Assembly (NCBI GenBank): GCA_031267575.1
Contig: JAIRYN010000003.1
Span: forward strand, 1 to 32,409
Length of the DNA stretch: 32,409 nucleotides
Source of the DNA: Synergistaceae bacterium
GTDB taxonomy: Bacteria > Synergistota > Synergistia > Synergistales > Aminobacteriaceae
Direction of reading: 5' to 3'
Made by a program: the position numbers and the translations under genes
Notes under the pieces: generated by a model
What the model saw: only the letters and a program-made list of their open reading frames with translations
What the model was told of the DNA's origin: nothing
Databases searched by the model: none
In this document: piece by piece, positions 8,599-24,640 of the stretch
Layout: each line of letters starts with the position of its first letter
Numbering within the stretch: the first letter of the stretch is position 1

Positions 8599-8600
8599 GA

Positions 8601-9431
8601 TCACTCCGCCGCGTAATGGTAAGTGATGCCGTCTTCCGGTGGTTGCGGAAGGTTACGAGTAGCCAAAAGGGCCTGTCCCTCTTGAAATTCGATCTTGTGC
8701 AGTTTGAGCGGCAGAGGGAAGCGTCTCAGGCTCAGTAGAGGCTGTATCTGAGAGATAGCCTGCTTGGTAATGTAGTCCGGAACGCTCATTGTGTTGACCC
8801 GCACTTTGTAGCCCTCCAGCCACAGCTCCTTGTTCTCCACAATTTTTAGCCCGCTTTCGACCTCCAACAAAATACGCAACGTAACGAACAAAACTTTCGC
8901 GATGTAGGTTCCCTTGGCGTAAAGCCCGGACGGAGCGATTTTCATGGAAATGTCTTGCCAATGGTCGTCTTTTCCGAAGGTTTCCGTCGCCAGCTTGCGG
9001 TTGATATCTTTCTCCTTAAGAAGACACTGGGCGTATATCTGGAGCACGCTCTCGCACTCTACCTCACCGGACGCCCATTTTGTCGGTGCGTTAAACTGCG
9101 CGTCGTACATACGGAAGATCAGTTTGTCCAGGCGGATTCCCTCAATCAAAACCCCCGTCAGGTTCATGTAGATGTCGCGAAAACGTCCCGTTTCGTCGGG
9201 TTGCTCATCGATGCACAGATCCAGTGTTTCGGGAGAGAACTCCTTAACGTAGTAAGCCAGAAGGCGTGACGTAGGATCCTGGGCGTCGATCTTTCCTTTA
9301 AACTCAAAGTGCGCCCCGGATGCCGGGATAGCGAACAGGATTACTCCCAAGCACAAATTAAAAAATAGATGGGAAAATAGATGGGAAAACAGGTGGGAAA
9401 ACAAATGAAAAATAGCGCGTAGAATCTTCAT
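8601..9431 (-). CDS. Exported DUF2993/LmeA-like lipid-binding protein
   Basis: This 276-residue protein has a signal peptide ending about ASGA-HFEF. The mature part resembles DUF2993 (LmeA-like, phospholipid-binding) proteins: an N-terminal NLTGVLIEGIRLDKLIF strand segment and a C-terminal QIQPLLSLRRFPLPLKLHKI segment. The assignment is by pattern memory, and the role would be envelope lipid handling. The ATG at 9431 is favoured over an upstream start at 9461 because AAAGGAGA lies about 10 nt before it. The signal peptide is odd: HLFS is repeated three times by a 12-bp tandem repeat. It is first gene of the operon with the DUF4153 protein. Confidence 0.7.
   Translation of the reverse strand: MKILRAIFHLFSHLFSHLFSHLFFNLCLGVILFAIPASGAHFEFKGKIDAQDPTSRLLAYYVKEFSPETLDLCIDEQPDETGRFRDIYMNLTGVLIEGIRLDKLIFRMYDAQFNAPTKWASGEVECESVLQIYAQCLLKEKDINRKLATETFGKDDHWQDISMKIAPSGLYAKGTYIAKVLFVTLRILLEVESGLKIVENKELWLEGYKVRVNTMSVPDYITKQAISQIQPLLSLRRFPLPLKLHKIEFQEGQALLATRNLPQPPEDGITYHYAAE
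9365..9412. repeat. 12-bp tandem repeat inside a signal peptide
   Basis: ATAGATGGGAAA is repeated exactly at 9365-9376 and 9377-9388. Diverging copies follow at 9389-9400 (ACAGGTGGGAAA) and 9401-9412. In the minus-strand gene each unit encodes one HLFS step, so the frame is kept. Confidence 0.9.
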
Positions 9432-9557
9432 CGGAAAAATCTCCTTTACCGAAATTATCAAGTGAAATCAGAAATCACAAGGACATGAAGCCATTCTAGC
9501 GCATAAACAAACTCCCGGATACCGTGACGTGACGAAATAGAGGTTCGGAAAATCCGC

Positions 9558-10835
9558 TCAAGGTAAACGCTTTAGACAGTCGAACCAAACAGACAGGGAT
9601 CTCTGAGTCGTCGTCCCGTTGAGCCAGTCCGCCTTGCCCCCACCCCGCGCTTCAAGTTCGGGGAATTTTTTGAGTAATCCCAACAGGTCCACGGGAAGCT
9701 CGGCCCCCCGCAGCAAGATGAAGGGGAAAGGGGTATTGATAGAGGTATCGGGTATGAGAACGAGGCAAAAAGCGTTTGGGTGCTCTGCGACGCAGTTACG
9801 CGCGGGTATCGAGAGCAGCTCCTTTGTCAGTCCGGAAAGCAGAGCGAAGTAAAGGGGGTAATTTCCCACCTCGCGCTCCTCCCAGACGATGGAAATATAG
9901 GGACGTACCTTGTCCGTCACCTGGCGAAGAAAAGCGTTCTCGGCTTTTTGCCGGGCGAAGACCTCCCCCAGTTGGTCTGGTCGGCAGCCCACGTCCCGCA
10001 GCAAGCGCCTCATTACGCGGGTGTACTCCCGTACACGTACTTCCTTTTCCACGGTGAAGCGTACCTCCCAGTCGGGGGCGGAACCATTGAACCCCGTAAC
10101 CAGAAACCCGCCGATTTCTCCCGTCCGTTTCACGTGAGTCCCCGCGCAGGCCGTGGCGTCAATACCCGCCACACGCACCACCCGTATCCGCTCGTCGTGG
10201 ATGCGGTCCCACTTGGCCTTCAGCTCTGGGATTTTCTCCGCTTCCTCTCTGGAGGTCAGGAAGGACTCCACCGGCAGGTCGGCGCGGATGACTGCAGCCG
10301 TCTTTTCCTCCAGCTCAAACAAAGACTCCCAGGTCAGAGGGCCGTCGTAGCGAACGTAGACGACGCTTTCGTCCACCCCGATGTTCACCTTGAGGGTTTC
10401 GAGGCCCTCGCAGGCGTTTTCTTGCAAGCGAGAAAATAAATGCTGCCCCGTGTGCATCTGGGACAAAATCATGTTGCGCGCTGTGTCGACCTCCGTCACG
10501 ACTTCCATGCCAGGTTTCGGTTTCCCCTCAATCAAGGTCAGATCGAGGATCGTTTTATAAAACGGAGAGCCAGCGAGGCGGGAGCTGCGCGAATCGCTTA
10601 GTTTCTTCTCTATCGAGTCTTCTATTGAGTCTTCGTGCTTGTGGGCGTCGCGGACCTCGGCGCGGAATCCCTCGGTTCTCAGCGTTCCCGTATCTCCCGG
10701 CTGACCTCCGCCGCTGGGGTGAAAGGGAGAGTTTTCCAGGACGATCTTGGCTTTTTTATTGCTGAGTTCGAGAACATCAACAATTTTTGCAGTTTTTGCG
10801 GTTTTTTTTTCTCCTTCGTCTCGACGCGTTTCCAT
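9558..10835 (-). CDS. alaX: AlaX-type alanyl-tRNA editing hydrolase
   Basis: This 425-residue cytoplasmic protein would free mischarged Ser or Gly from tRNA-Ala. It carries the AlaRS editing-domain signatures: HPSGGGQPGDTG near residue 40, the zinc motif HTGQH (H128, H132) and CAGTH (C230, H234). A C-terminal DHHA1-like segment with RGGGKADWLNG near 400 makes it the long AlaX class, lacking the aminoacylation domain. AAAGGAG lies about 11 nt before the ATG, and a TATAAT (minus strand, 10876-10871) sits further upstream. A 12-bp in-frame duplication gives DSIEDSIE in a charged linker. It is divergent from the ComB-like gene. Confidence 0.9.
   Translation of the reverse strand: METRRDEGEKKTAKTAKIVDVLELSNKKAKIVLENSPFHPSGGGQPGDTGTLRTEGFRAEVRDAHKHEDSIEDSIEKKLSDSRSSRLAGSPFYKTILDLTLIEGKPKPGMEVVTEVDTARNMILSQMHTGQHLFSRLQENACEGLETLKVNIGVDESVVYVRYDGPLTWESLFELEEKTAAVIRADLPVESFLTSREEAEKIPELKAKWDRIHDERIRVVRVAGIDATACAGTHVKRTGEIGGFLVTGFNGSAPDWEVRFTVEKEVRVREYTRVMRRLLRDVGCRPDQLGEVFARQKAENAFLRQVTDKVRPYISIVWEEREVGNYPLYFALLSGLTKELLSIPARNCVAEHPNAFCLVLIPDTSINTPFPFILLRGAELPVDLLGLLKKFPELEARGGGKADWLNGTTTQRSLSVWFDCLKRLP
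10609..10632. repeat. 12-bp in-frame duplication in alaX
   Basis: TCTATCGAGTCT (10609-10620) and TCTATTGAGTCT (10621-10632) differ by one base and encode the DSIE DSIE doublet. Confidence 0.85.
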
Positions 10836-11001: not shown

Positions 11002-12012
11002 ATGTCGAAACTCGTACAAGTCGAGACGGTTTTTTCGTATAGCGAACACTTGCCTGTGGTGGATGTCTGGTTGGTGGTGGATATTTTGCGGGCAACAACT
11101 ATGATAGTAACTTGGTTCGCTGCGGGAGGCGCCGAACTCTACCCTACTGTTTCCGTGGATGCCGCGAGGTCTCTTGCGGAACATCTGAAAGAAGAGGGCG
11201 GGCAACCCCTTTTGATGGGAGAACAAAACGCTGTCGCGCCCCAGGGGTTCGACTTGGGAAATTCTCCATTAGGCATTACGCCGGAAATGATCCAAAAATA
11301 TTCTTGCGCTGTCATGGCTACCACAAATGGCACAAAGGCCATATCGAAGGCTGCCTCCATGGGAACACCCGTTCTCATTGCTTGCGCACGCAACGCCTTT
11401 GCCGCTCTCGATTTGGCGCTCACCAAAGGGAACCGGTTGGGTATTTTTTGTTCCGGGCGCAAAGGACGTCCGGCGTGGGACGACACGTTGTGCGCGGGAC
11501 TTTTCATCGCCATTCTGAAAGAACACTTCCCCGACATACGTCTCGCCGACAGCTCGCGGTTGGCCTTGCTAGCCTGGTCGGAGCCCAAGAACTTCAAATC
11601 ATCCCTTAAAACCGCTGATCACGCTATTTTTTTGGAAAAGATCGGATATGGAGATGATATCGCTTTCGCGGCTGAGATCGATGCCGTCCGTGTCGTCCCC
11701 GAACTTCATGAGCTTCCCAGTGGAAACGAAACGCGGTTGGTCCTGCGCCCAGGTATGGTCCCCGAAAAACCTCTCGCGTTGAACCGCCAAGCCTCATGGG
11801 CTCTGAAAATATTGGAAAAAAACTCGCGCGGAGGGGAAATTTTCTCTGAACCTACCGCCTTGATTCGGTTGCTCGCTCCGAACCGGACCGAAGATGATGC
11901 CTTATCTGATTTTTCACCTATGGCGGAGGGAAGGCACAGTCCAGGAAACGTTTTCTTCGGTGGTGAACTTTACCGGCGACGACGCAGAAATAAGGTTAAA
12001 AGAACCTCTTGA
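11002..12012 (+). CDS. comB: ComB-like 2-phosphosulfolactate phosphatase family protein
   Basis: This 336-residue protein matches the ComB family (Mg-dependent phosphatase of coenzyme M synthesis in methanogens). Signatures include VDILRATT near residue 27, GNSPLG near 85, TTNGTKA near 107 and a C-terminal VPEL. In bacteria without coenzyme M the substrate is uncertain, so treat the name as a family label. GAGGGGG lies about 8 nt before the ATG. At 336 residues it exceeds the usual roughly 240. The extra tail ends in a basic run (YRRRRRNKVKR) and overlaps an open +2 frame that leads into LarC, so the last 40 residues may reflect a frameshift or decay. Confidence 0.8.
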   Translation: MSKLVQVETVFSYSEHLPVVDVWLVVDILRATTMIVTWFAAGGAELYPTVSVDAARSLAEHLKEEGGQPLLMGEQNAVAPQGFDLGNSPLGITPEMIQKYSCAVMATTNGTKAISKAASMGTPVLIACARNAFAALDLALTKGNRLGIFCSGRKGRPAWDDTLCAGLFIAILKEHFPDIRLADSSRLALLAWSEPKNFKSSLKTADHAIFLEKIGYGDDIAFAAEIDAVRVVPELHELPSGNETRLVLRPGMVPEKPLALNRQASWALKILEKNSRGGEIFSEPTALIRLLAPNRTEDDALSDFSPMAEGRHSPGNVFFGGELYRRRRRNKVKRTS

Positions 12013-12032
12013 ATTTCTGATTGAATTTCTAA
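12009..12032 (+). repeat. 12-bp duplication at the ComB-like stop
   Basis: TTGAATTTCTGA (12009-12020) and TTGAATTTCTAA (12021-12032) lie end to end. The first contains the TGA stop of the ComB-like gene. Confidence 0.85.
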
Positions 12033-12076
12033 ACACGAGAGACAACATCATCAGATGTGGAGTGAATAGGTCAGTT

Positions 12077-13258
12077 ATGAAGACGTTATATTTAGATTGT
12101 TTTGCGGGTATTGCTGGCGACATGTTGGTGGGGGCGCTCTTCGAGTTTGCTCCAAATCTGGACCGACTCAGAGCTGAGTTGGCTAAAATGACGAAACTTT
12201 CGACCTCGGATTACGAAATTCAGATAGAAAAAGACGTCAGGGGCGGCATCGCAGGAAACTATTTTTGCGTGAAGACCCATGAACATCATCCCCACAGAGG
12301 ATTGAAAGAAATAGAGGACATCGTCGTGACCAGCGCTCTTTCTACTCGTATCCAGCGCGAGGCCATGAGAGCTTTTGCTCTGCTGGCGGAGGCCGAGGCG
12401 AAAGTCCATGGCGTTACGCCGGAGGAGATCCATTTTCATGAAGTGGGGGCCATCGACTCCATCGTGGACATCGTGGGGGCCTTCATTTTAATTGATCAGT
12501 TGGAGTGGCCCAGGGTACTATGCTCCACTATTAACGTGGGGTCAGGGACCGTCACGTGCGCTCACGGGCTGTTGCCCGTGCCCACTCCAGCGACGGAGAT
12601 TCTGCTCCATGGCCTGCCGGTTTGTTCGAGGGGAGAGCCTATGGAGCGGACAACGCCTACAGGCGCGTTATTGGTCCGTTGTTTGGCGGACGGATTCTGC
12701 GAGATCCCGGAGGGAACGATTCTGACTTCCGGTTACGGACTGGGGACTCGGAAATCGGACCTGCCCAACCTCCTCCGCGTTCTTCTGATGGAGTGCAAAG
12801 AGCTGGGGGGGCAGGGCGTGAAGCATGATCGCGTGACACTGCTGGAAAGTAATATCGACGACATGAATCCTCAGGACTTCGAACTTGTCACAGAGCGGCT
12901 TTTTGAAGAGGGCGCCTTAGATGTTTGGTTGGAGTCCATCGACATGAAAAAAGGACGTCCGGGAGTGAAGTTTTGTTGCCTTTGTTCCCCCGAAAAAGCT
13001 GAGGCGCTTTCGTGGATCGTTTTGCGCGACACCACCACTCAGGGGGTGCGGCGAGCAACTCTTGACCGCTCTAAATTATGTTATAAGATAGACGAAGTTT
13101 TCACCTCCCTGGGCGCTCTGAGGGTGAAAACGGCTTTTATGGGGGAAAACCCCATTCGCCGTACTCCAGAATATGACGACATCAAGCATTTAGCGAAGGA
13201 AAAAAGGCTTCCTCTGTCGGAGATTCGCAATCAAGTTCTTCGTGAGTTGCCGCAATGA
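12077..13258 (+). CDS. larC: LarC, nickel-pincer cofactor (NPN) nickel insertion enzyme
   Basis: This 393-residue enzyme inserts Ni into the pyridinium-bisthiocarboxylate mononucleotide cofactor of lactate racemase-type enzymes. MKTLYLDCFAGIAGDML begins the family, HFHEVGAIDSIVDIVG and RTTPTGALL follow, and the C-terminal LESNIDDMNPQ domain is complete. In some lactobacilli the gene is split by a programmed frameshift; here it is one uninterrupted frame. The ATG at 12077 matches the family start, although the frame is open 61 codons further upstream, and the ribosome site is weak (AGG at 6 nt). LarB, LarE and LarA are not in the window, so the cofactor's user must be elsewhere. Confidence 0.92.
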   Translation: MKTLYLDCFAGIAGDMLVGALFEFAPNLDRLRAELAKMTKLSTSDYEIQIEKDVRGGIAGNYFCVKTHEHHPHRGLKEIEDIVVTSALSTRIQREAMRAFALLAEAEAKVHGVTPEEIHFHEVGAIDSIVDIVGAFILIDQLEWPRVLCSTINVGSGTVTCAHGLLPVPTPATEILLHGLPVCSRGEPMERTTPTGALLVRCLADGFCEIPEGTILTSGYGLGTRKSDLPNLLRVLLMECKELGGQGVKHDRVTLLESNIDDMNPQDFELVTERLFEEGALDVWLESIDMKKGRPGVKFCCLCSPEKAEALSWIVLRDTTTQGVRRATLDRSKLCYKIDEVFTSLGALRVKTAFMGENPIRRTPEYDDIKHLAKEKRLPLSEIRNQVLRELPQ

Positions 13259-14328: not shown

Positions 14329-14451
14329 ACAACGAATTTTACGGAAAGCAGCTGTAAAAGGAATTAGGAATTTCTGGTCGCTGCGGAGACCCGCGCAAAG
14401 TGCTCGGGAAAATCGAGATTTTGGACAAGAAAGAATGGAGGAGAAGTGACA

Positions 14452-15435
14452 ATGAAGAAAACATTAGTCGTTTTGGGTGTCATTCTCGTTTTGGCGGCGA
14501 CCTGTTCCACAAGCAGCGCGATGGATCCCGTGAAGAGAAGCGATTACTTCATCACTGTGCTGACGGGGCCTTCCAGTGGAATTTATTTCCCGATCGGCGG
14601 AGCTTTTTCGACGTTCGTCGGCAAACTGGGGTACAGAGCCTCGGCTACCGCTACCGGCGCTACGGCGGAGAACATCAATGCTCTTCAGACCGGACAGGGA
14701 GAAATGGCCATCGCTATGGCCGACTCAGTTATTCAGGCTGTGGAATCCTTTGGCGCTTACGAGGGACAGCCTCCTGCGGACGATTTGCGCGCGATGATGG
14801 GACTGTGGCCCAATTTCTGCCAGATCGTCACTACGGTGGACTCAGGCATCGCGAAGTTCACCGACATGAAGGGTAAACGTGTAGGAGTGGGTGCTCCCAA
14901 TTCGGGAGTGGAACTTAACGCTCGAATGATGTTCGAGGCGCATGGAATGACCTATGATGACTGCAAAGTGGACTACCTCAGCTACGGCGAGGCCATCGAC
15001 CAGATGAAAAATGGCTTATGCGACGTGGCGTTCGTCACTTCCGGACTCGGCAACGCCACCATTATGGAGCTGGGGACCAGTAAAAAAATTTCCTTCGTCC
15101 CAGTCGAGGGCGAGGCGCTCCAGAATCTTCTGAAAAAATATCCTTTTTACATCGAGGCCACGATTCCGGCCACGACTTATGGAACGAACAGCGACACCAC
15201 CACGGCCGCCGTCATGAACATCATGCTCGTCGATGTTAAACTACCCGCGGAGGTAGTATACGATCTGCTCGATAATATCTACTCGCCCGCGGGTATCGAG
15301 GTGATCCAGGGATCTCACGCCACGGCGAAGGCCAACATCAGCCTCGACACCGCCCTGCGCGGCATCGTGGGAACTTCCGTTCCTTTCCACAACGGAGCCG
15401 CCCAGTTCTACAAAGACAAAGGTTTATTGAAGTAG
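14452..15435 (+). CDS. TAXI-family TRAP transporter solute-binding protein
   Basis: This 327-residue periplasmic receptor delivers an organic solute to the fused TRAP permease encoded downstream. The signal peptide (MKKTLVVLGVILVLAAT) would be cleaved after SSA at about residue 24. TAXI features include TGPSSGIYFPIGGAF, TATGATAENINALQTGQ and KGKRVGVGAPNSG. The ATG at 14452 is chosen because GGAGGAG is 8 nt upstream; a GTG two codons earlier is too close. The ligand cannot be read from sequence. It heads the operon and is typically the most highly expressed TRAP component. The cysteine in the signal region is not in a good lipobox. Confidence 0.92.
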   Translation: MKKTLVVLGVILVLAATCSTSSAMDPVKRSDYFITVLTGPSSGIYFPIGGAFSTFVGKLGYRASATATGATAENINALQTGQGEMAIAMADSVIQAVESFGAYEGQPPADDLRAMMGLWPNFCQIVTTVDSGIAKFTDMKGKRVGVGAPNSGVELNARMMFEAHGMTYDDCKVDYLSYGEAIDQMKNGLCDVAFVTSGLGNATIMELGTSKKISFVPVEGEALQNLLKKYPFYIEATIPATTYGTNSDTTTAAVMNIMLVDVKLPAEVVYDLLDNIYSPAGIEVIQGSHATAKANISLDTALRGIVGTSVPFHNGAAQFYKDKGLLK

Positions 15436-15507
15436 TCGAAGGCGTGACGAACGAATTGAACGTCATAGTCGCGAAGCCATATCCGGGAATTTTTTCTCCC
15501 AATTGAG

Positions 15508-16029
15508 ATGCGTGGGCGCATGAAAATTCTGTTGACCGTTATTGCTGCGATATTCGCCGCGATTTTGGCTCAGGTGTCTTTATGCGTTCATGCGGAATCA
15601 GTGGAATTAATAGAATCAACGGAATCAGTGGAATTAACGGAATTCACGTTGCGCGTCAGCGACTGGAAAACCGGCGTCATCTACTCCGAAGTTCCAGCAA
15701 AGGCCGGAAGCAAACTCTTTTTCGGCTGGATTCACTCACTGGAAAAAATCCCCTGGAACGAATATTACCACATCGCCGAGGACGGAGCTCTGATACTGGA
15801 CTCCGTCACCTTCCCTGCCTTTGGTGCCGGTATCCCCGAAAATAAGGGGAAGGTGTGCTATATCGAGAACGGTTTGATTCATATGGAAAAAATCGATCAA
15901 ACGTTTGAAGAGTTGGTATGGCTCAATTCCCACACGGCGACCCAGGAAATACTGCTAGACGGCGAGTACGTGACGAGAGGCAGCGACCTGCCTCACCATG
16001 CTCGATTACGTTTGGTCATCGGTGATTGA
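15508..16029 (+). CDS. DUF1850 exported protein of a TAXI-TRAP operon
   Basis: This 173-residue protein has a signal peptide ending about residue 29 (CVHA). The body has the DUF1850 pattern (FGWIHSLEKIPWNEYYHI, then a TFPAFGAGIPEN-like turn). DUF1850 proteins are found with TAXI-TRAP systems but have no settled role. The start is uncertain: ATG at 15508 or 15520, neither with a clear Shine-Dalgarno. Just after the signal peptide a 27-bp duplication encodes ESVELIEST ESVELTEFT, which lengthens the mature N-terminus. It lies 72 bp after the receptor gene and about 115 bp before the permease. Confidence 0.85.
   Translation: MRGRMKILLTVIAAIFAAILAQVSLCVHAESVELIESTESVELTEFTLRVSDWKTGVIYSEVPAKAGSKLFFGWIHSLEKIPWNEYYHIAEDGALILDSVTFPAFGAGIPENKGKVCYIENGLIHMEKIDQTFEELVWLNSHTATQEILLDGEYVTRGSDLPHHARLRLVIGD
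15594..15647 (+). repeat. 27-bp in-frame duplication in the DUF1850 gene
   Basis: Units 15594-15620 and 15621-15647 share an exact first 17 bp (GGAATCAGTGGAATTAA) and then diverge slightly. The period is nine codons. Confidence 0.9.
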
Positions 16030-16040
16030 TCCCTTACGAC

Positions 16041-16117
16041 CTTACTATCGAGTTGCTTACTATCGAGCTGCTTTGATGCCCACTCTCGCCTACATAAACA
16101 TAGGACATAAACATAGT
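16041..16117 (+). repeat. Two different tandem duplications before the TRAP permease
   Basis: CTTACTATCGAGTTG (16041-16055) is repeated with one change at 16056-16070. ACATAAACATAGG (16092-16104) is repeated with one change at 16105-16117. Both lie in the 114-base gap before the permease start. Confidence 0.9.
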
Positions 16118-16143
16118 GAAATGTTGATTTGAAGGTATTGTCT

Positions 16144-18210
16144 ATGAAAGAGGTGATGGCAGTGGAGCAGGATAAAATGGAAGGCGATTTTTTGAAAGGA
16201 AGCTCGGACTTGAAAAATAACGCAGGTGACGCATTGAATGAGGAGATTACCCAGGCGATGGGAGGAGTTCTAACTCAAACACAGCAAGAACTTATCGAAA
16301 AACTCGACAAAGAGGCTAGTACTCGTACTTTGCAAAATCCTTTGATGGCAAAACTCTTCTTTTTCGCCTGCGTCGCTGTTTCTGTGTACCACTTCGTCAC
16401 TTCACTATATGGGATGCCAGTCGTGCTCAAGCATCGTTCGTTACATGTAGCCATGATGTTGGTCCTGGGGTTCATCATGTATCCCTTCGGCAAGAAAAGC
16501 GACTACAAGCACATAAGCTGGGTTGATTGGCTGTTGATCGTCCTGGCGATGCTTGTGCCGTTGTACGTTTGGATCGACTATCTGGGTATCGTTAGCCGAG
16601 CGGGAAGGGCCAATGTCTACGATCTGGTCGCTGCGACGGTTTTGGTGCTATTGGTGCTGGAGGCCTCGCGGCGCATGTCCGGCTGGGCGCTGCCCATCTT
16701 GAGTATGGTCTTCATCGCCTACGGCCTTTATGGGCGCGGGTTGCCAGGGATATTCGGGCATCGCGGCTATACATGGCTGCAACTTTCCAACCATTTCTTC
16801 GCCAATACGGAGGGCATCTACGGCTCTTCGGTGAGCGTGGCCGCCAGTTATATTTTCTTGTTCATTCTCTTCGGCGCGATCATGGGTCGATCTGGAATGG
16901 GGGCCTTCTTCAATGATATTTCTATGGCTCTGGCTGGTCATTCCAAAGGCGGCCCGGCAAAAGTCTCCGTCGTCGCGTCAGGATTGTTGGGTTCTATCAA
17001 TGGATCCGCCGTCGCCAATGTCGTTACCACGGGAGCTTTCACCATCCCTCTCATGAAAAAAACCGGTTACTCCAAGGAATTTGCGGGAGCCGTCGAAGCC
17101 TCGGCTTCGGTGGGTGGCCAGTTGCTTCCTCCCGTCATGGGCGCCGCGGCTTTTATCATGGCAGAGATCCTGAGTATACGTTACTCCGTGATCATCGTAC
17201 ACGCGGCCATTCCCGCCCTCCTTTACTACCTGGGTATCATCATTCAAGTGCACCTGCGCGCTTGCAAAAACAACCTGCTGGGTCTACCGAGAGACCAGTT
17301 ACCCCAGGTAGGGGCCGTGCTGAAGGCGAGGGGACACTTGCTCATACCCATCGTCATCTTGCTTTACCTGCTTCTCTTTTCCGGCACGACCGTCGTTTTC
17401 TCCGCCGTTGTGACGATCGTCGCCACGGTCGTCGTCGCCTGTCTCAGGAAATCCACTCGAATGAGTTTCGACGACGTATGCCAGTCTTTCGCGGAAGGCG
17501 CGCGCTCCACGGTCCCGGTGGCAATGGCCTGCGCCTGCGTGGGAATTGTCATCGGCGTTATTTCAAAAACCGGCTTCGGATTGATAATGGCGAACAGCAT
17601 CATTGCTTTGGGTAAGCAAAGCCTATTTCTCACGTTGATCTTCACCATGATCACCTGCATGATCCTCGGCATGGGGGTTCCCTCCATTCCAGCCTATATC
17701 ATCACGGCCACAATCGCGGCGCCCGCTTTGGTTGGACTAAATGTAGGGATTGAGCCGGTTGCGGCTCACATGTTTGCTTTTTATTTCGCCATGTTCGCCA
17801 ATCTGACTCCCCCTGTGGCCTTAGCGGCTTTCGCGGCGGCGGGTTTGTCCGGCGGGGATCCTATGAAAACGGGGTTTGCTTCGGTGAAGCTGGCAATCGC
17901 GGGCTTCATTGTTCCCTACATGTTTATTTATTCTCCGCAATTACTTCTCATCAATACTTCGCTTCTTGAAGGCATTCGCGTCGCGATAGGCGCTTGTGTG
18001 GGGGTACTGATGATCGCCGTAGCCGTCGAGGGGTATCTTTTCACAAAAGTACATTCACTTCTGAGGGTGATATCCTTCGGCGGCGCGGTCTGTTTAATTG
18101 ACAGTGGGCTGGTGACGGACCTGATCGGCGGCGTTATCTTGGTGGGGTTGCTCGCGACCCAACATTACGCGGCTCTAAAAGAACGAGGGCGAGGCGCGCT
18201 GGTGGCGTGA
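16144..18210 (+). CDS. TRAP transporter fused 4TM/12TM permease
   Basis: This 688-residue membrane protein fuses the small (DctQ-like) and large (DctM-like) TRAP subunits, as usual for TAXI systems. It uses an ion gradient to take up the ligand bound by the TAXI receptor. Large-subunit motifs include GLLGSINGSAVANVVTTGAF, EASASVGGQLLPPVMGAAAF and GMGVPSIPAYIITA. The ATG at 16144 has GAAGG 8 nt upstream. The first 58 or so residues form a hydrophilic, partly helical N-terminal tail (DKMEGDFLKG to QELIEKLDKEAS) before the first membrane segment. That is somewhat long for the family. It ends the operon and a strong terminator follows. Confidence 0.93.
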   Translation: MKEVMAVEQDKMEGDFLKGSSDLKNNAGDALNEEITQAMGGVLTQTQQELIEKLDKEASTRTLQNPLMAKLFFFACVAVSVYHFVTSLYGMPVVLKHRSLHVAMMLVLGFIMYPFGKKSDYKHISWVDWLLIVLAMLVPLYVWIDYLGIVSRAGRANVYDLVAATVLVLLVLEASRRMSGWALPILSMVFIAYGLYGRGLPGIFGHRGYTWLQLSNHFFANTEGIYGSSVSVAASYIFLFILFGAIMGRSGMGAFFNDISMALAGHSKGGPAKVSVVASGLLGSINGSAVANVVTTGAFTIPLMKKTGYSKEFAGAVEASASVGGQLLPPVMGAAAFIMAEILSIRYSVIIVHAAIPALLYYLGIIIQVHLRACKNNLLGLPRDQLPQVGAVLKARGHLLIPIVILLYLLLFSGTTVVFSAVVTIVATVVVACLRKSTRMSFDDVCQSFAEGARSTVPVAMACACVGIVIGVISKTGFGLIMANSIIALGKQSLFLTLIFTMITCMILGMGVPSIPAYIITATIAAPALVGLNVGIEPVAAHMFAFYFAMFANLTPPVALAAFAAAGLSGGDPMKTGFASVKLAIAGFIVPYMFIYSPQLLLINTSLLEGIRVAIGACVGVLMIAVAVEGYLFTKVHSLLRVISFGGAVCLIDSGLVTDLIGGVILVGLLATQHYAALKERGRGALVA

Positions 18211-18230
18211 TCTCGGAAACAAGAATAACA

Positions 18231-18263
18231 TGCCGGGTTCCTCGAGGAAACCCGGCATTTTTT
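18231..18263 (+). terminator. Rho-independent terminator of the TRAP operon
   Basis: TGCCGGGTT (18231-18239) pairs with AACCCGGCA (18249-18257), with CCTCGAGGA between, and T6 follows. The minus strand has a weaker T-rich tail (TGTTATTCTTGTTT), so it might also serve the convergent surface-protein gene. Confidence 0.9.
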
Positions 18264-18338: not shown

Positions 18339-21300
18339 CTACTTGCTCCGCCTCATAAGGAGAGGAACGAGAGAGAATAGCGCAAGCGCCGCGTAACCCA
18401 CGTCACAGCCACCACTGCTGCCGGATCTACCGTCAGCGCCCTGTTCACCGGGATCGCCTTTGTCACCTTTATCACCTTTCTCGCCAACGGCGGCGGTGTG
18501 TGCGTACCCTGCTGCCAATTGCCCGCTGAAAGTCGGGTTGTTATTGACGCTTTCGTAAGCGATATCGTAGATACCGGAAGGCAATGTACTCACATCGATG
18601 TTCAATACACTCTTACCATCAACCATGGTGGCGAATCCATAAAACGTCTGGGATTCGTTCGCGTTCGCTCGGACGGAGTCCGAGGACGCGGCGGTGTTCA
18701 CACTTGCGGTGTACTTAAGTAGAACGCCCGAGGGAATGATCACGCCATCGGCTTCGAATACGAGGGTGTTAGGCTGAGCTGACGACTGTTGGACAGGAGC
18801 AAACTTTTCTAGCGGATACGAAATTTCGAAGTGTCTGTCCGTTGTGTTGAGGGGTTTCTCCGTGCCATCGTTGTAAATGACGGTGACGGCGCCGGTGGCT
18901 TCGTCTATGGCGATCTCTACGATGTCCTTGGGATTCTTCACGGCTTCTGTTTCGCCAGGCTTACCGGGGTTCGGTTCCTCCATATTCACAAGCCACGTCC
19001 TGTCCTGGTCGGCGAACTCCAGGTCGAGATGTATCGGTACATCCATGCTTGCGAGGGGCCTCCCGCCATCGAGATACTTGATCTTAGCCGAGTCTCCATC
19101 GTCGGAGTAACGGCTGTAAGCCACGTCACCGCTATTGGTTTCCGTGCTGAAACCTTCTCCAACTGTATTGCCACTAAATGTCGAGATACCGTAGAGCGTG
19201 ACCTCAACGTCGGACGATACCAAGCTGACGCCCATTCTGCCTGGTTGAGGACTGTCGCCATAGTGAATATCCACCGCGCCGCCCGCGTAGGTCGCCTTGT
19301 TGCCGGTAAAGGTAGAGGTCGTGATGTCCAGCGTTCCGATGCCCTTCACACCCACCGCGCCGCCCGAAAGCGCTTCATTGTTGTTGAACACGGTGTTGAC
19401 GAGGGTAACGGCGCCGTTTCGTGCCGAGATGGCTCCGCCCATGCCCATGACGTCATTTCTGCCCTTGGCCTTGTTGCCGTTGAAAATGCTGTCCGTAGCG
19501 TTCAACATCGGCAATCCTGTGCCGTGTGGGTCCATATAGATTGCTCCACCGCCGCCGGCGCCCGCCGTGTTGTTGTTGAAGGTCACCCTGTTCAGGTTGA
19601 GCGTAGCGTTGCCCTCCACAAAAACCGCGCCGCCCGGCTTCGCGTTGTAGGCGCCATTTTTGACGACCACGTTACTGAGGTTGGCGACTACCGTCCTCTC
19701 CCCGCCGTCGAAGTCGAGAACGGGGTATCCGTTACCGTCGATAATGTGCCCGTTGCCGAAGATTGACACGTTCTTCGTGATGAAGACGGTTGCGCCGGTA
19801 TCCGCGTCGGTTTTGGAAGTTGTGCTGGAGTTATAGGAATGTGTATCATAAGTCAGGTTCGAGTTGATAACGATAATATCCCCATCCTCGGCGATACCTT
19901 CAGTTATAGCAGTATCTTTCGTACCACTTATGGAGTAATTCCAGTAGCCCAAAGCCTTTTTCAGGTCCTCATGGCTATTGACCTCGATGGGCGGGGTTAT
20001 CACCGCTGAACGGTTCGCGTCAGCGAAGTATGTCGCTGGCCAGGCGTTTTCACCTACAATCAAAGTGCCAAATTTTGCGTCGTAGGGATCAGCGGTTACC
20101 TCTTCGGTAAAGGTGGGTGGATAGTGGGCGCTCAAGACGTAATCGTCTGTCTCGGTGCCGTCGATACCGTCGCTGTTGCCTTTGAACGTGGCGTTGATCG
20201 TCGCGGCGATGGGAGTCGGGAAGTAATTATTGCCGCTCGTGCCGTAAATGTGAATGGCGCCGCCCGACCACCCAGCGGTATTATCGGTAAAACTGGAACT
20301 GGAGTCTACGTTGAAAATCGGGCTATTGGGCATAGTGGAGAACGCTATAGCGCCGCCCAGTTGATCCGCGCTGTTGTTGACGAAGGAAGTATTAGCGACA
20401 GTGAGCGACCCATTGACGTGAATGGCGCCGCCCCTACGATGCGTCGTGTTTCCTGAAAAAGAACTGTTACTAATGTCCAGGCGGGCGTTGTTCTGCATAA
20501 AAATCGCGCCGCCGCCCATATTGGCGCTGCCTGTTGTGGTCCCATAGCTCGTATTGTCTTTGAAGGCGCTGTTTTTGATGGTGAGCTCACCGGCAAAGAC
20601 GGCGACTGCTCCGCCTCCAAATCTATAACCGTCACTCTCACCGTCCGAGTCCGCATCTTTACCGCTTTGTAGATTTTGCAGGGTTAGATTGTACAGGGTG
20701 ATTCTGTTGCGCGTGTCATCGGTACGGTTACTCCCAAAGCGCAAAGCGGTGTCCGCGCCATTCTTCCCGTCGAGTGTGTGACCCTGTCCATTAATGAAGA
20801 TCCATTTGCCGTCGGTCGCGGCGGTACCATGCAGGCTGCTCGCTCCATAGGTGGTCGATGTCACAGCGTCAATATCGTTTTCCAGGTAGAGGGCCGTCAC
20901 CGTACCGGATACCGCTGTTTTAATCGCGTTATCTAATTCTTCACCGGTTGCTATGGGTTTCACGTCGCCCACGCGCAACAATCCCTCACCGTATTCATAC
21001 GCGCCGATATCGGCTGCCACCCTCACGAAACCGCGCTGATCCGCAAAAGGAGCAAAACCACTGTTTGCCGCGTCAATTGCCGGAGATTTCGCCTTGAGAG
21101 CAAGCGTTCCGTCAGTGCCCGGCGTGGTCGCCGTAAACAAATCTCCCATGATTACGCCGATCGTGGAGGTTTCGTTATGACTATTATTAGTACTAAAGCC
21201 TATCAAGTTATAGCCGTCGTCGAAGTTGTCGACATCGTTGTTTAATGCTGTTGTGCTGGTTGTGTTGACCTTATTGCCGACGACAATACTGTTGACGAGT

Positions 21301-22085
21301 TTGACGGTACTATTGACCCCTTTCGCCAAACCGCCTCCCTTATAGTCTCCCGTCACGGTATTTCCCACGATGGTACAGTTCGCGATTGTTCCAGTGGCAA
21401 CGGAGTCTCCTGCTCTGTTGCTGTTTCCCGCGTAAATGGCGCCACCAGCGCGCGCCGATTTATTTCCAAAAAAAGTACTGTTGATGATGTTCAGCACGCC
21501 ATTATTCTGTAAAAACACGGCGCCACCGAGCGCGTTGTTTCCGGTCCCTACGCTTTCGTTATTTATGAACGCGCAATTTTCAATTGTAACGATTCCTGAA
21601 CGCACACTGAGAGCGCCGCCGCCATAACCATAGGAACCACCTCTGGCTGTAGTCGCGCCGCCTGTGCCGCCGACCTGAAAGTCCTTAAAGGTCAGGTTAC
21701 GCAATACGATAATGTTGCCATCATCGCCGCTGGCAGTACCGTCAAAACGCAAACCCGTGTTCGCCCTGTTCCCAAAGCTACCGTTTGTCGCCGTGAGAGT
21801 ATGTCCCTTCCCATTGATTGTCACATGCCTAGAGGTTGCGTAGGTAGCCGCGGAAACCGCGTCAATGTCTTTACTCAACTCTACATAAGTCATTACGTCC
21901 TCAGATGCCGCGGACTTGATTGTTTCATCCAGCTCACTCCAAGTTATGACAATGTAGGGCTCGCTCGCTGTTCCCTTCCCCGTTGTCGCGTAGGCTGCCG
22001 GCAACGGAGCCAATAGCGCCAGTACGCTAATCAATACAATTGTTAGTTTTAACAAACTCCTAAAAAGCGCCCAAATATTTTGCAC
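18339..22085 (-). CDS. Giant beta-helix surface protein with collagen-like stalk and Synerg-CTERM anchor
   Basis: This 1248-residue secreted protein has a signal peptide cleaved after AYA near residue 33. It contains three related modules starting near 42, 377 and 700. Each opens with a helix-strand unit (WSELDETIK, GEELDNAIK, HEDLKKALG), passes INGKGHTL-type turns and enters repeats such as NNTAGAGGGGAIYM. This is the parallel beta-helix pattern of polymorphic outer-membrane proteins. A C-terminal domain leads to about eight Gly-X-Y triplets (GDKGDKGDPGEQGADG, near 1200), then SGGCD, a hydrophobic stretch and MRRSK, matching Synerg-CTERM. The GTG at 22085 is chosen because AGGAGAGG precedes it; a GTG at 22109 lacks a site. 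DADTGAT (760-766) fits the ApbE flavinylation pattern. Likely an adhesin or surface-layer component. Confidence 0.85.
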   Translation of the reverse strand: MQNIWALFRSLLKLTIVLISVLALLAPLPAAYATTGKGTASEPYIVITWSELDETIKSAASEDVMTYVELSKDIDAVSAATYATSRHVTINGKGHTLTATNGSFGNRANTGLRFDGTASGDDGNIIVLRNLTFKDFQVGGTGGATTARGGSYGYGGGALSVRSGIVTIENCAFINNESVGTGNNALGGAVFLQNNGVLNIINSTFFGNKSARAGGAIYAGNSNRAGDSVATGTIANCTIVGNTVTGDYKGGGLAKGVNSTVKLVNSIVVGNKVNTTSTTALNNDVDNFDDGYNLIGFSTNNSHNETSTIGVIMGDLFTATTPGTDGTLALKAKSPAIDAANSGFAPFADQRGFVRVAADIGAYEYGEGLLRVGDVKPIATGEELDNAIKTAVSGTVTALYLENDIDAVTSTTYGASSLHGTAATDGKWIFINGQGHTLDGKNGADTALRFGSNRTDDTRNRITLYNLTLQNLQSGKDADSDGESDGYRFGGGAVAVFAGELTIKNSAFKDNTSYGTTTGSANMGGGAIFMQNNARLDISNSSFSGNTTHRRGGAIHVNGSLTVANTSFVNNSADQLGGAIAFSTMPNSPIFNVDSSSSFTDNTAGWSGGAIHIYGTSGNNYFPTPIAATINATFKGNSDGIDGTETDDYVLSAHYPPTFTEEVTADPYDAKFGTLIVGENAWPATYFADANRSAVITPPIEVNSHEDLKKALGYWNYSISGTKDTAITEGIAEDGDIIVINSNLTYDTHSYNSSTTSKTDADTGATVFITKNVSIFGNGHIIDGNGYPVLDFDGGERTVVANLSNVVVKNGAYNAKPGGAVFVEGNATLNLNRVTFNNNTAGAGGGGAIYMDPHGTGLPMLNATDSIFNGNKAKGRNDVMGMGGAISARNGAVTLVNTVFNNNEALSGGAVGVKGIGTLDITTSTFTGNKATYAGGAVDIHYGDSPQPGRMGVSLVSSDVEVTLYGISTFSGNTVGEGFSTETNSGDVAYSRYSDDGDSAKIKYLDGGRPLASMDVPIHLDLEFADQDRTWLVNMEEPNPGKPGETEAVKNPKDIVEIAIDEATGAVTVIYNDGTEKPLNTTDRHFEISYPLEKFAPVQQSSAQPNTLVFEADGVIIPSGVLLKYTASVNTAASSDSVRANANESQTFYGFATMVDGKSVLNIDVSTLPSGIYDIAYESVNNNPTFSGQLAAGYAHTAAVGEKGDKGDKGDPGEQGADGRSGSSGGCDVGYAALALFSLVPLLMRRSK

Positions 22086-22290
22086 TATAAACACCTCTCC
22101 TAATTTCACTCTGCATCATAAAGGACTGTTCCGATTTGAATTGCCGAATTTCCCAGTGCGCTCACAACTCTCTGCCGTCTCTTAATCCGACGACGCTCGT
22201 TACTACACCAACCTCAATCGATGAGTTCTCGCCTCCTTTGCCTCCGGAGCTGCCAATCCCGTTCGGGCGGGTTTTCGTGAACGTAAGCGA

Positions 22291-23439
22291 TCACGACTTA
22301 TCAGCGCTCGCCATTATTTTCGACAAGGGCAGGTAGCCCCTCGTCGCCATCTTCGTTCCATCCTCCGTTACCCACAAGGCCTCCGCGCCGTGTCTTAAAA
22401 GTAGCTCCCGCGCCTTGTCCAGCGGAAGGATGAAGGCGGCGGTTGAGAGAATGTCGGCAGTAGCGGAGTCGGGGTGAAGGACGGTGACGGATTTCAATCC
22501 CTCAGCGGGAAAGAACGTTTTCGGGTCAATGATGTGGTGATAGCGCCGCCCTCCCACCATGAAATAGCGTTGATCGTTGCCGCTAGTGACGGCTGCCCCA
22601 TCCGTGAGCCGGAGGACGTCGAGAATTTTCGATCTGTCCTCTTCCTCCGTCGGGGCGTGGATGCCGATGTTCCAAGCGCCGCGACCGTCGAGAGGCTTGC
22701 CAATAATGGCCACATTGCCCCCCGCGTTGATAAGACCGGACCTCATACCTGCCTCCCGAAGGCATTCGATGGTTTTTTGCACCGCGTATCCCTTGGCCAC
22801 GGCCCCCAGGTCCAGGCGCATGTCTTCATGACGTAACGAGACCATTGAGTTCTCCTGATCGATAAGGATATCCTCCACAGAGACGTGAATCGCGGCCTGG
22901 CGAAGCTCCTCCTGAGATGGAATCGAAACCGGTTCCTCGCCCGCCAGTACTTTTTCTCGACTGTCATGCCAAATCTTCAGGACTGGCCCCAGAGCGATGT
23001 TGACCGCCCCGCCCGTATCCCCGTAGGCCGCTTTAGCTCTTTCTAGAAGATCCACAAGAGAACGATCAACCCGCAAAGGCGCGTTTTCCGCGCCCGCGTT
23101 GTCGTTGATCGTTTTTATATTGAGCAGCCCGTCGTACTCGTGATAGATATCGAACAGGCGGTGTAGACGGCTCATTTCGCCGCGGACAATCTCCGCGTAT
23201 CGCTGGAACTCTTCCTCGCTCTCAGCGAAGGCTGTGAAAGAGACGATGGTATCAAAGGTATCGAAAAATTCCATGGAAAACTTGGGAGGGTTTCCTCCTA
23301 TAAGGTTTTCTCCTATTTTGGGCACGCTACCGGACTCCGTCCGCCCGCTCCAGGTCCAAACAGCGAACATAACAAGAACCACAAGCGACAGCGCCGCGCC
23401 GAAAAAGCGACCTCGAAAGCGGCTCATGTTGTGACTCAT
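22291..23439 (-). CDS. apbE: ApbE, FAD:protein FMN transferase
   Basis: This 382-residue extracytoplasmic enzyme transfers FMN from FAD to Thr/Ser in acceptor proteins. An N-terminal membrane anchor spans residues 13-31 with no lipobox. Family motifs are intact: LDLGAVAKGYAV near 210, NAGGNVAIIGKP near 240, TSGNDQRYF near 285, HHIIDPKT near 300 and ADILSTAAFIL near 330 (metal-binding D/T). The ATG overlaps the stop of the Gx transporter gene as ATGA, so translation is coupled. The cluster with NusG-II and Gx proteins resembles part of Gram-positive flavin-based electron transfer loci (FmnB role) and also occurs near Rnf-type genes. No classical FMN_bind protein lies in the window. Confidence 0.95.
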   Translation of the reverse strand: MSHNMSRFRGRFFGAALSLVVLVMFAVWTWSGRTESGSVPKIGENLIGGNPPKFSMEFFDTFDTIVSFTAFAESEEEFQRYAEIVRGEMSRLHRLFDIYHEYDGLLNIKTINDNAGAENAPLRVDRSLVDLLERAKAAYGDTGGAVNIALGPVLKIWHDSREKVLAGEEPVSIPSQEELRQAAIHVSVEDILIDQENSMVSLRHEDMRLDLGAVAKGYAVQKTIECLREAGMRSGLINAGGNVAIIGKPLDGRGAWNIGIHAPTEEEDRSKILDVLRLTDGAAVTSGNDQRYFMVGGRRYHHIIDPKTFFPAEGLKSVTVLHPDSATADILSTAAFILPLDKARELLLRHGAEALWVTEDGTKMATRGYLPLSKIMASADKS

Positions 23440-23972
23440 GTCTGAGAAACGTGAGCGTTCCTCATGGGAACGTTCTTATTCTTGTTATTCTTGAAAAGAG
23501 GCATCACCACGCGAAGCATCACGGCCGTTAGGCTACCGGCCACGACGCCCGCTACCACCATGACGGGAAGCAGGAAAAGCAACAGGTTGGAGGAAGCCAG
23601 CCAAGAGGCCACGGCCAGTTGCGCCATGTTGTGAGTAATGGCTCCCGCGACGCTGAGCAGAAAGTACGAGGCGTTCCGCCACAGAGCCGCCAGAAGAGCG
23701 ATAACGGTCAGAGAGAGTATTCCGCCGCTCAAGCTCAAAAGTCCCGCCACCAACCCCCTCGTCAGAAGGACAAACAAAGACTTCATCAACGCTAATAAGA
23801 AGGCGGATCGTCTGCCCATGAAGAAGAGCGCATACATCGTCACCACATTGGAAAGCCCAAAACGCATGTGAAACGGCAGGGGTGGAAACATTCCCTCCAG
23901 TATGGATAACACGAAGATCATGGACAACATGAAAGAAAGTGTCGTCAATTCGCGCGCCGTAAAATTTTTCAT
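23436..23972 (-). CDS. Gx transporter family membrane protein (EetB-like)
   Basis: This 178-residue hydrophobic protein has about five to six membrane segments. It belongs to the family once labelled heptaprenyl diphosphate synthase component I, now Gx transporter; FPPLPFHMRFGLSNVVTMYAL is the typical first loop and helix. In Gram-positive electron transfer loci a protein of this family is called EetB; that link is from memory. The ATG at 23972 is preferred over a TTG at 23978 because GAGGAG lies about 9 nt before it. It sits between the NusG-II gene (61-bp gap) and apbE (4-bp overlap). Its substrate, perhaps a flavin or quinone precursor, is unknown. Confidence 0.85.
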   Translation of the reverse strand: MKNFTARELTTLSFMLSMIFVLSILEGMFPPLPFHMRFGLSNVVTMYALFFMGRRSAFLLALMKSLFVLLTRGLVAGLLSLSGGILSLTVIALLAALWRNASYFLLSVAGAITHNMAQLAVASWLASSNLLLFLLPVMVVAGVVAGSLTAVMLRVVMPLFKNNKNKNVPMRNAHVSQT

Positions 23973-23999
23973 TGCCAACTCTCCTCGTTCTGAACATTC

Positions 24000-24021
24000 T
24001 TTATAACTCTTTTATAACTCT
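24000..24021. repeat. 11-bp duplication TTTATAACTCT
   Basis: Exact copies at 24000-24010 and 24011-24021 lie between the Gx and NusG-II genes. Confidence 0.9.
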
Positions 24022-24033
24022 AATGTATAACCT

Positions 24034-24432
24034 TCAATATATAACGCTATCCAAAGCCTCTTCTTCCCGCTCACGAGTGACAACACGAATAACCACTCTG
24101 TTAGGAAGACACACGGCCGATTGTCCTGGCAACGATAAAAAGCCCATGTGAACACATATCTTGTCTGGACAGTCGGATTGGACAAACCCCACCGTTTCCT
24201 CTCGCACGACAATCTTCACGCCGGGCAAACCGGTAGGACTGTAATAAAACCTTTTTTCGCTCAGGGGAACCAGCTGGTCCATTTGTCCGTTTACGGTGAT
24301 CTCCGCGTACCTCTCTCCTTTGCTTCCTCGATAGGTCGAGACAAAGTAAGAGACAAAGTAAAAAGAAGAAAGTACCAAAAATAGAAACGACAAAGCCCAG
24401 AGATCGCGCCAGACAAAAAATTTTCTCTCCAC
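24034..24432 (-). CDS. NusG domain II-containing membrane protein (EetA-like)
   Basis: This 132-residue protein has one N-terminal transmembrane helix (about residues 11-30) and an extracytoplasmic NusG-II-type domain. ITVNGQ is followed by DCPDKICVHMGF and SAVCLPNRVVIRV. The three cysteines in CPDKIC...C are the usual signature of this small family, which accompanies Gx transporters and is called EetA in some Gram-positive flavin electron transfer loci. The start is GTG with AGGGTG about 6 nt upstream. A 12-bp in-frame duplication in the helix gives YFVSYFVS. It is first gene of the three-gene operon with the Gx protein and ApbE. Confidence 0.85.
   Translation of the reverse strand: MERKFFVWRDLWALSFLFLVLSSFYFVSYFVSTYRGSKGERYAEITVNGQMDQLVPLSEKRFYYSPTGLPGVKIVVREETVGFVQSDCPDKICVHMGFLSLPGQSAVCLPNRVVIRVVTREREEEALDSVIY
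24338..24361. repeat. 12-bp in-frame duplication in the NusG-II gene
   Basis: GAGACAAAGTAA is exactly repeated at 24338-24349 and 24350-24361. On the coding (minus) strand it encodes the YFVS doublet in the membrane helix. Confidence 0.9.
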
Positions 24433-24640
24433 AGAACACCCTACATTTCTCGAACATTGTCATCCAAACATGTCTTATCAAACATATCTTACATATCTTA
24501 CAAAAGTTGGGCTAGCCAATAAACAAACATGAATAACGTAATGTTTATGTAGCGTAATTTAGCATTAAATATTTGTATTGTCAAACACAATTAGAATTTC
24601 TGAGATAAAATATAACCCTTTCTATCTTGGAGCAGTTTTG

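Follow-up and report, generated by a model that had tools for sequence, protein, structure and literature searches.

A NusG_II-Gx-ApbE gene set in a Synergistota genome and a neighbouring beta-helix surface protein as its proposed flavinylation client

Introduction

An ApbE-type FMN transferase encoded next to EetA- and EetB-like membrane proteins raises a simple question: on which protein is the flavin placed? We address it for a locus of a Synergistaceae bacterium (assembly GCA_031267575.1), found in a stretch of 32,409 nucleotides (hereafter, the window) that makes up an entire contig (C3) of a genome of 2.76 Mb, 97.1% complete. The first-pass annotation of the window had interpreted the locus as a module for flavin-based extracellular electron transfer (EET). 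In Listeria, EetB (a member of the PF07456 family) binds FAD, and export of FAD to ApbE depends on it along with an ECF-T protein and ECF ATPases; deletion of eetA leaves EET unchanged, and across bacteria eetB co-localises most commonly with Rnf and EET systems (PMC9973259). ApbE recognizes the target motif D-x-x-[S/T]-G-A-[S/T], and substitutions within this motif lower flavinylation (PMC12052999). The substrate classes named in the available text of two surveys are FMN_bind, DUF2271, DUF3570, Flavodoxin_4 and FMN_red (PMC8238504, PMC11334425).

Gene content and boundaries of the locus

Three head-to-tail genes on the minus strand encode a NusG_II-domain protein, a Gx protein and an ApbE protein (Table 1). 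Pfam profiles confirm the families and coordinates given in the first-pass annotation, and the spacing that it described, a 61-bp gap between NusG_II and Gx followed by an ATGA overlap between Gx and ApbE, can be read directly in the sequence (the gap is measured to the ATG at 23972, a more probable Gx start than the one at 23978). Its description of ApbE as membrane-anchored with intact motifs also agrees with the sequence, in which the N-terminal segment is hydrophobic and the conserved motifs are present. The operon was described as having three genes; these are as stated, but a fourth gene, which follows downstream and encodes the likely client, was missed. A promoter-like site and a terminator-like hairpin (consensus matches only) enclose four genes, not three.

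Table 1. Features of the locus; positions refer to the window and residues to the beta-helix protein
Feature	Position	Strand	Evidence or remark
NusG_II-domain membrane protein (EetA-like family)	24034..24432	-	PF07009, E 3.4e-23; motif C-P-D-x-x-C...C-L-P
Gx / Hpre_diP_synt_I protein, EetB family, putative ECF-type FAD exporter S-subunit	23436..23978	-	PF07456, E 1.4e-27
ApbE, FAD:protein FMN transferase, 'window-type' subfamily	22291..23439	-	PF02424, E 7.7e-71, 239 bits
Large secreted beta-helix surface protein, three motif-bearing modules, Synerg-CTERM tail; proposed FMN acceptor	18339..22109	-	
Promoter-like site TTGACA-17-TAAATT, upstream of NusG_II	24556..24584	-	Consensus match; site count in the region equals chance expectation
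Strong terminator-like hairpin, 12-bp stem, directly 3' of the beta-helix gene	18230..18258	-	
Site 1, motif-like DAVSAAT, residues 83-89	21843..21863	-	D and T identical in all eight aligned proteins
Site 2, motif-like DAVTSTT, residues 414-420	20850..20870	-	
Site 3, canonical ApbE motif DADTGAT, residues 768-774	19788..19808	-	Matches D-x-x-[ST]-G-A-[ST] (PMC12052999)
Synerg-CTERM sorting tail SSGGCDVGYAALALFSLVPLLMRRSK, residues 1231-1255	18345..18419	-	TIGR04564, 28.4 bits against a cut-off of 22.5

The cysteine pattern of the NusG_II protein, found in CPDKICVHMGFLSLPGQSAVCLP, is retained in 79 out of 93 homologs. The genome encodes one NusG_II protein, one PF07456 protein, two ApbE proteins and two ECF-T (CbiQ) proteins; both CbiQ genes are found elsewhere in the genome and neither is beside the operon. 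Among 151 Synergistota genomes, 51 encode NusG_II, with Gx and ApbE genes nearly always adjoining where the contig is long enough, and since the triplet recurs across the phylum in this way, its grouping is not due to chance. In one genome (G144, L060), NusG_II and Gx genes are found at 9456-10610 with no intact ApbE recognised alongside, and a relative in the same genus has the full set.

Because PF07456 proteins (EetB) have been described as ECF-type FAD exporters that feed ApbE, the triplet can be read as a flavin-export and FMN-transferase module. The flavinylation module proposed in the first-pass annotation is thus retained as a prediction from family membership, ApbE on the one hand and Gx, of the EetB family that serves FAD export in Listeria (PMC9973259), on the other. 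Such a flavin-supply and transfer triplet does not by itself imply EET.

The window-type ApbE subfamily

Judged by its sequence, the window ApbE is a member of the FAD:protein FMN transferase family with the conserved FAD/Mg site residues present. It matches TM1553 and other FMN transferases with the catalytic motifs intact, and its motifs (DLGAVAKGYA, NAGGN, TSGN, HHIIDP and TADILSTAAF) are largely invariant within its subfamily. It belongs to a clade of its own, apart from the rnf-linked ApbEs of Synergistota: in 188 Synergistota genomes, full-length proteins of this window type score more than 580 bits, as compared with at most 198 bits for every other ApbE. Whole or partial window-type ApbEs were found in 15 of the 188 genomes (eight genera). 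The gene order differs as well, NusG_II-Gx-ApbE for the window type versus ApbE-NusG_II-Gx for the usual Synergistota set, and the latter directly adjoins rnf in a good part of the Synergistota genomes.

The nearest named relatives of the window ApbE come from metagenome-assembled 'Synergistaceae bacterium' genomes. Outside the phylum the closest relatives are clostridial (44-46% identity) and are often encoded alongside Rnf genes; a search of their neighbourhoods for beta-helix or other motif-bearing partners found only Rnf subunits and one unrelated ORF. Within the phylum, there is one case (G071) in which no ApbE but the window-type one was seen beside RnfG. Given this case and the clostridial relatives, Rnf may be a client of the subfamily too.

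Architecture of the beta-helix protein

The fourth gene encodes a protein of 1,256 aa with Chlam_PMP (polymorphic-membrane-protein) repeats (E 7e-13); its true start is likely the GTG at 22085, after AGGAGAGG. It contains three modules, and each module has one motif site, located in a loop ahead of the first strand. Of these sites, only DADTGAT is fully canonical; DAVSAAT and DAVTSTT deviate from the consensus. In an alignment of eight beta-helix proteins there are 19 invariant columns, among them the first D and the last T of the motif, and in six modules of the C type, the one represented by site 3, the residues D, T, A and T never vary. Across the homologs the motif occupies equivalent places, directly before a strand with the pattern VTIxGxGHTI, and the C-terminal parts of the proteins vary (e.g. 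leucine-rich repeats or collagen-like sequences).

Scanning the window protein and its homologs with Pfam profiles (E-values up to 10) gave no FMN_bind, DUF2271, DUF3570, Flavodoxin_4 or FMN_red domain, the sole exception being an FMN_bind match (E 0.16) over the motif of one homolog. AlphaFold models of two modules (mean pLDDT 81.8 and 72.9) are beta-helix folds in which the loop with the motif leads up to the first strand, which suggests that the motif loop would be accessible. The best solved-structure match is rhombotarget A (9cdu), a weak match with identity of ∼15% and a TM-score below 0.5.

The genome encodes another member of this family (contig C47:48732-53390, equivalent to L274:8733-13391, plus strand), which has 1,553 aa, three modules with the sites DAIASST, DAVTSST and DAVTSST, and a Synerg-CTERM-like tail. 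Its gene has no apbE linkage.

Conservation of the neighbour and of the motif

The conserved downstream gene was found by an all-against-all comparison of ApbE neighbourhoods. Out of 15 genomes with the window-type subfamily, 11 have a beta-helix homolog downstream of the ApbE gene. The spacing between the two reading frames is 4-217 bp in 10 of these 11 genomes and 1.6 kb in G104; in one of the 11 (G139), the adjoining apbE is a remnant. This adjacency, conserved across genera, rules out a chance neighbour. In G139 the remnant covers the C-terminal part of a window-type apbE (contig C104, L133, 10193-10543), and a full-length window-type apbE is found on another contig (C15) with no beta-helix neighbour in view.

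We also searched the 188 genomes with two beta-helix module alignments. Strong matches were found in 13 genomes, 11 of which have a window-type ApbE (seven out of seven when counted by genus), and the co-occurrence is significant (Fisher p 5e-13 by genome and 1e-8 by genus, uncorrected for relatedness). The family is present and no window-type ApbE was found in G114 and G124, both of which are incomplete genomes; the assemblies compared are for the most part fragmented.

For the motif, domains were collected by a profile in which the seven motif columns were masked, giving 27 non-redundant strong domains. A relaxed motif, D-x-x-[S/T]-[G/S]-A-[S/T] with near variants included, is found at the same place in 26 of the 27, and the remaining domain has DAIVSAT. 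Eight of these domains have the tightest form, D-x-x-[S/T]-G-A-[S/T], and 15 have Ser or Gly at position 5 together with Ala at position 6; Ser at position 5 is also seen in Synergistota RnfD (DGLSSAT). Strict matches number 17 in 12,911 residues, versus ∼0.5 expected by composition. Among weaker domains the motif is found in three out of 12, all from genomes that have the family (G114, G104 and G064), and in none of the remaining nine low-scoring beta-helix domains, which are from genomes without the family, a small control set that argues against the motif being a general beta-helix feature. The domains share ancestry, and therefore the motif could persist for structural reasons.

Once the hypothesis had been formed, seven more loci were examined. 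Three of them have a beta-helix gene beside ApbE (the ApbE remnant in the case of G139), with the sites DAIASST, DAMTSAT and DAITSAS; three (G178, G181 and G108) show none beside the window-type ApbE in the sequence available, which is short in some; and in the seventh (G176) the sequence ends inside ApbE. The motif or a near variant of it is found in the domains seen since then, those of G177, G173, G139, G124 and G114, the C47 protein of the same genome, and a second protein of G140.

The last of these genomes belongs to a genus (g9) in which no FMN_bind protein and no RnfD were found in three out of three genomes (98, 88 and 82% complete). The window-type ApbE is the only ApbE of G140, and this genome encodes two motif-bearing beta-helix proteins (sites DAVTSAT, DSDTGAT and DDITGAT, the last two being found in the second protein). 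In this genus, no candidate target other than the beta-helix protein was seen.

Rnf and other flavin proteins of the genome

The genome has a complete rnfCDGEAB cluster on another contig (C60; L006:6021-12292), followed by a second, different apbE gene; the contig of the operon (C3) has no rnf genes. RnfG, encoded within this cluster, is the sole FMN_bind protein in a genome-wide profile search. The RnfG site in Synergistota is mostly [QEL]AISGAT, in which the first Asp, strictly conserved according to the literature, is replaced. The surroundings of the C60 cluster, named from sequence, include a large membrane transporter ORF downstream, and molybdenum-hydroxylase-like and permease ORFs upstream.

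The first-pass annotation considered that its EET reading would fail if the genome had a complete Rnf/Nqr cluster with RnfG and RnfD as the only flavinylation targets and no extracellular acceptor. A complete Rnf is indeed present, but its two subunits are unlikely to be the sole targets, because the adjoining gene in the operon encodes a beta-helix protein with ApbE motifs.

Proposed function of the locus and alternatives

The observed gene content and order, together with the conserved pairing of subfamily, neighbour and motif, point to a four-gene unit that probably puts FMN on the neighbouring surface beta-helix protein. We infer the following steps. Gx would export FAD from the cytoplasm, using shared ECF subunits whose genes lie elsewhere; ApbE, anchored in the membrane, would cleave FAD and join FMN to the last Thr or Ser of sites resembling D-x-x-[S/T]-[G/S]-A-[S/T]; and the beta-helix client would be modified in the periplasm while held there by its C-terminal tail. 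By analogy with MYXO-CTERM proteins, for which one model proposes folding in a state anchored to the inner membrane and outward transport afterwards (PMC11980579), the Synerg-CTERM tail may then direct the protein to the surface, where a redox role is conceivable. The C47 protein would be a likely further client, and the Rnf complex would be served by its own ApbE on the other contig. Such a unit predicts FMN on the threonines T89, T420 and T774.

A rather unlikely alternative is that the module supplies FAD and FMN transfer only to Rnf (RnfG and RnfD), the beta-helix protein being an unrelated adhesin with a structural or coincidental motif. The complete rnf cluster with the only FMN_bind protein of the genome would fit this, as would the ApbE-NusG_II-Gx sets adjoining rnf in many other Synergistota, the frequent position of the clostridial relatives of the window ApbE after rnfB, and the 572 Clostridia genomes in which eetB and Rnf are co-localised (PMC9973259). 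However, within the phylum the conserved neighbour of the subfamily is the beta-helix gene rather than rnf, and the motif is found in members of the family and is absent from other beta-helix domains. The alternative is further weakened because rnf has an ApbE gene of its own on C60 and because the Rnf-less genus g9, as seen in G140, keeps both the window-type ApbE and the beta-helix proteins.

Two other readings are compatible with flavinylation of the beta-helix protein and concern what its flavin would do. The EET interpretation of the first-pass annotation is not supported as stated, considering that EetB-family genes accompany Rnf too, that Listeria EET was spared by the eetA deletion, and that there is no PplA-like FMN_bind protein. 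The annotation had itself pointed out that an FMN-bearing lipoprotein is lacking; this is correct for a PplA-like protein, but the likely acceptor is the next gene downstream. Plain membership of the EET loci was rejected because the genome has no FMN_bind lipoprotein and because neither Ndh2 nor a quinone gene could be recognised in the locus. A looser, Listeria-like path, from a membrane carrier through a surface flavoprotein to an outside acceptor (iron or quinones), seems improbable to us. The EetB and ApbE families are in common, the operon encodes a surface-sorted candidate flavoprotein, and nifJ in the window could be a source of reduced ferredoxin; but no Ndh2, demethylmenaquinone-synthesis or PplA-like genes were recognised in the window (for the first two, on inspection by eye of the ORFs surrounding the operon), the one FMN_bind protein of the genome is RnfG, the sites in the window protein are ∼330-350 residues apart, which we estimate to be too far for direct hopping along the chain, and a diderm envelope requires a route across the periplasm, and none was found. 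Somewhat less doubtful, and still only a possibility, is a role other than electron export, such as attachment, chemistry on oxygen or sulfide, or redox enzymology in the periplasm or at the surface: single sites scattered where each beta-helix module begins and the variable C-terminal parts of the homologs are consistent with it, and the lack of a conserved catalytic partner gene adjoining the operon is not. It is a speculative idea, to be held loosely, that Synergistota have dedicated multi-site FMN loading of rod-shaped surface beta-helix proteins for redox exchange with microbes, humic matter, iron or quinones.

Comparison with known systems

The Listeria monocytogenes EET locus (EetA, EetB, FmnA, FmnB, PplA and Ndh2; PMC9973259) similarly combines EetB-family and ApbE-type genes with a secreted candidate acceptor in one operon. 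The candidate acceptor, however, is a beta-helix surface protein here and an FMN_bind lipoprotein there, no Ndh2, quinone-synthesis or FmnA gene was recognised here, and the host has a separate Rnf. The Rnf-associated ApbE-NusG_II-Gx clusters of Clostridia and other Synergistota contain the same three families, whereas in the window the beta-helix gene takes the place of rnf, which is found elsewhere with another ApbE.

Multi-flavinylated proteins and other ApbE substrates (PMC8238504, PMC11334425) resemble the beta-helix protein in that a secreted protein encoded by an apbE-linked gene has several motifs. The window protein differs in being a right-handed beta-helix with no FMN_bind match, outside the classes described in the available text of these papers. 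In the open-access literature we found nothing on flavinylation together with beta-helix proteins, or on ApbE together with polymorphic membrane proteins, so that as a client of ApbE, a role suggested by its motifs and gene neighbourhood, the beta-helix fold probably represents a class without known covalent flavin. If this is true, ApbE gains a new substrate fold, flavinylation extends to adhesin-like beta-helix proteins (a large group unsuspected as redox proteins), and the fermentative Synergistota gain a candidate flavin-based surface redox system. With MYXO-CTERM and GlyGly-CTERM sorting and with rhombotarget A (9cdu), the protein shares a C-terminal tag, a TM helix and a basic tail, and the architecture of a beta-helix surface protein. 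None of these is known to be flavinylated.

Other genes in the window

Convergent to the operon, a TAXI-type receptor ORF, a DUF1850 protein and a DctM-type TRAP permease are encoded in a row at 14446-18210 (plus strand). Overlapping genes at 6871-9461 (minus strand) encode a DUF4153 membrane protein and an LmeA-like phospholipid-binding protein, and a LarC-type nickel insertion protein (PF01969, 432 bits) is encoded at 11894-13258 (plus strand).
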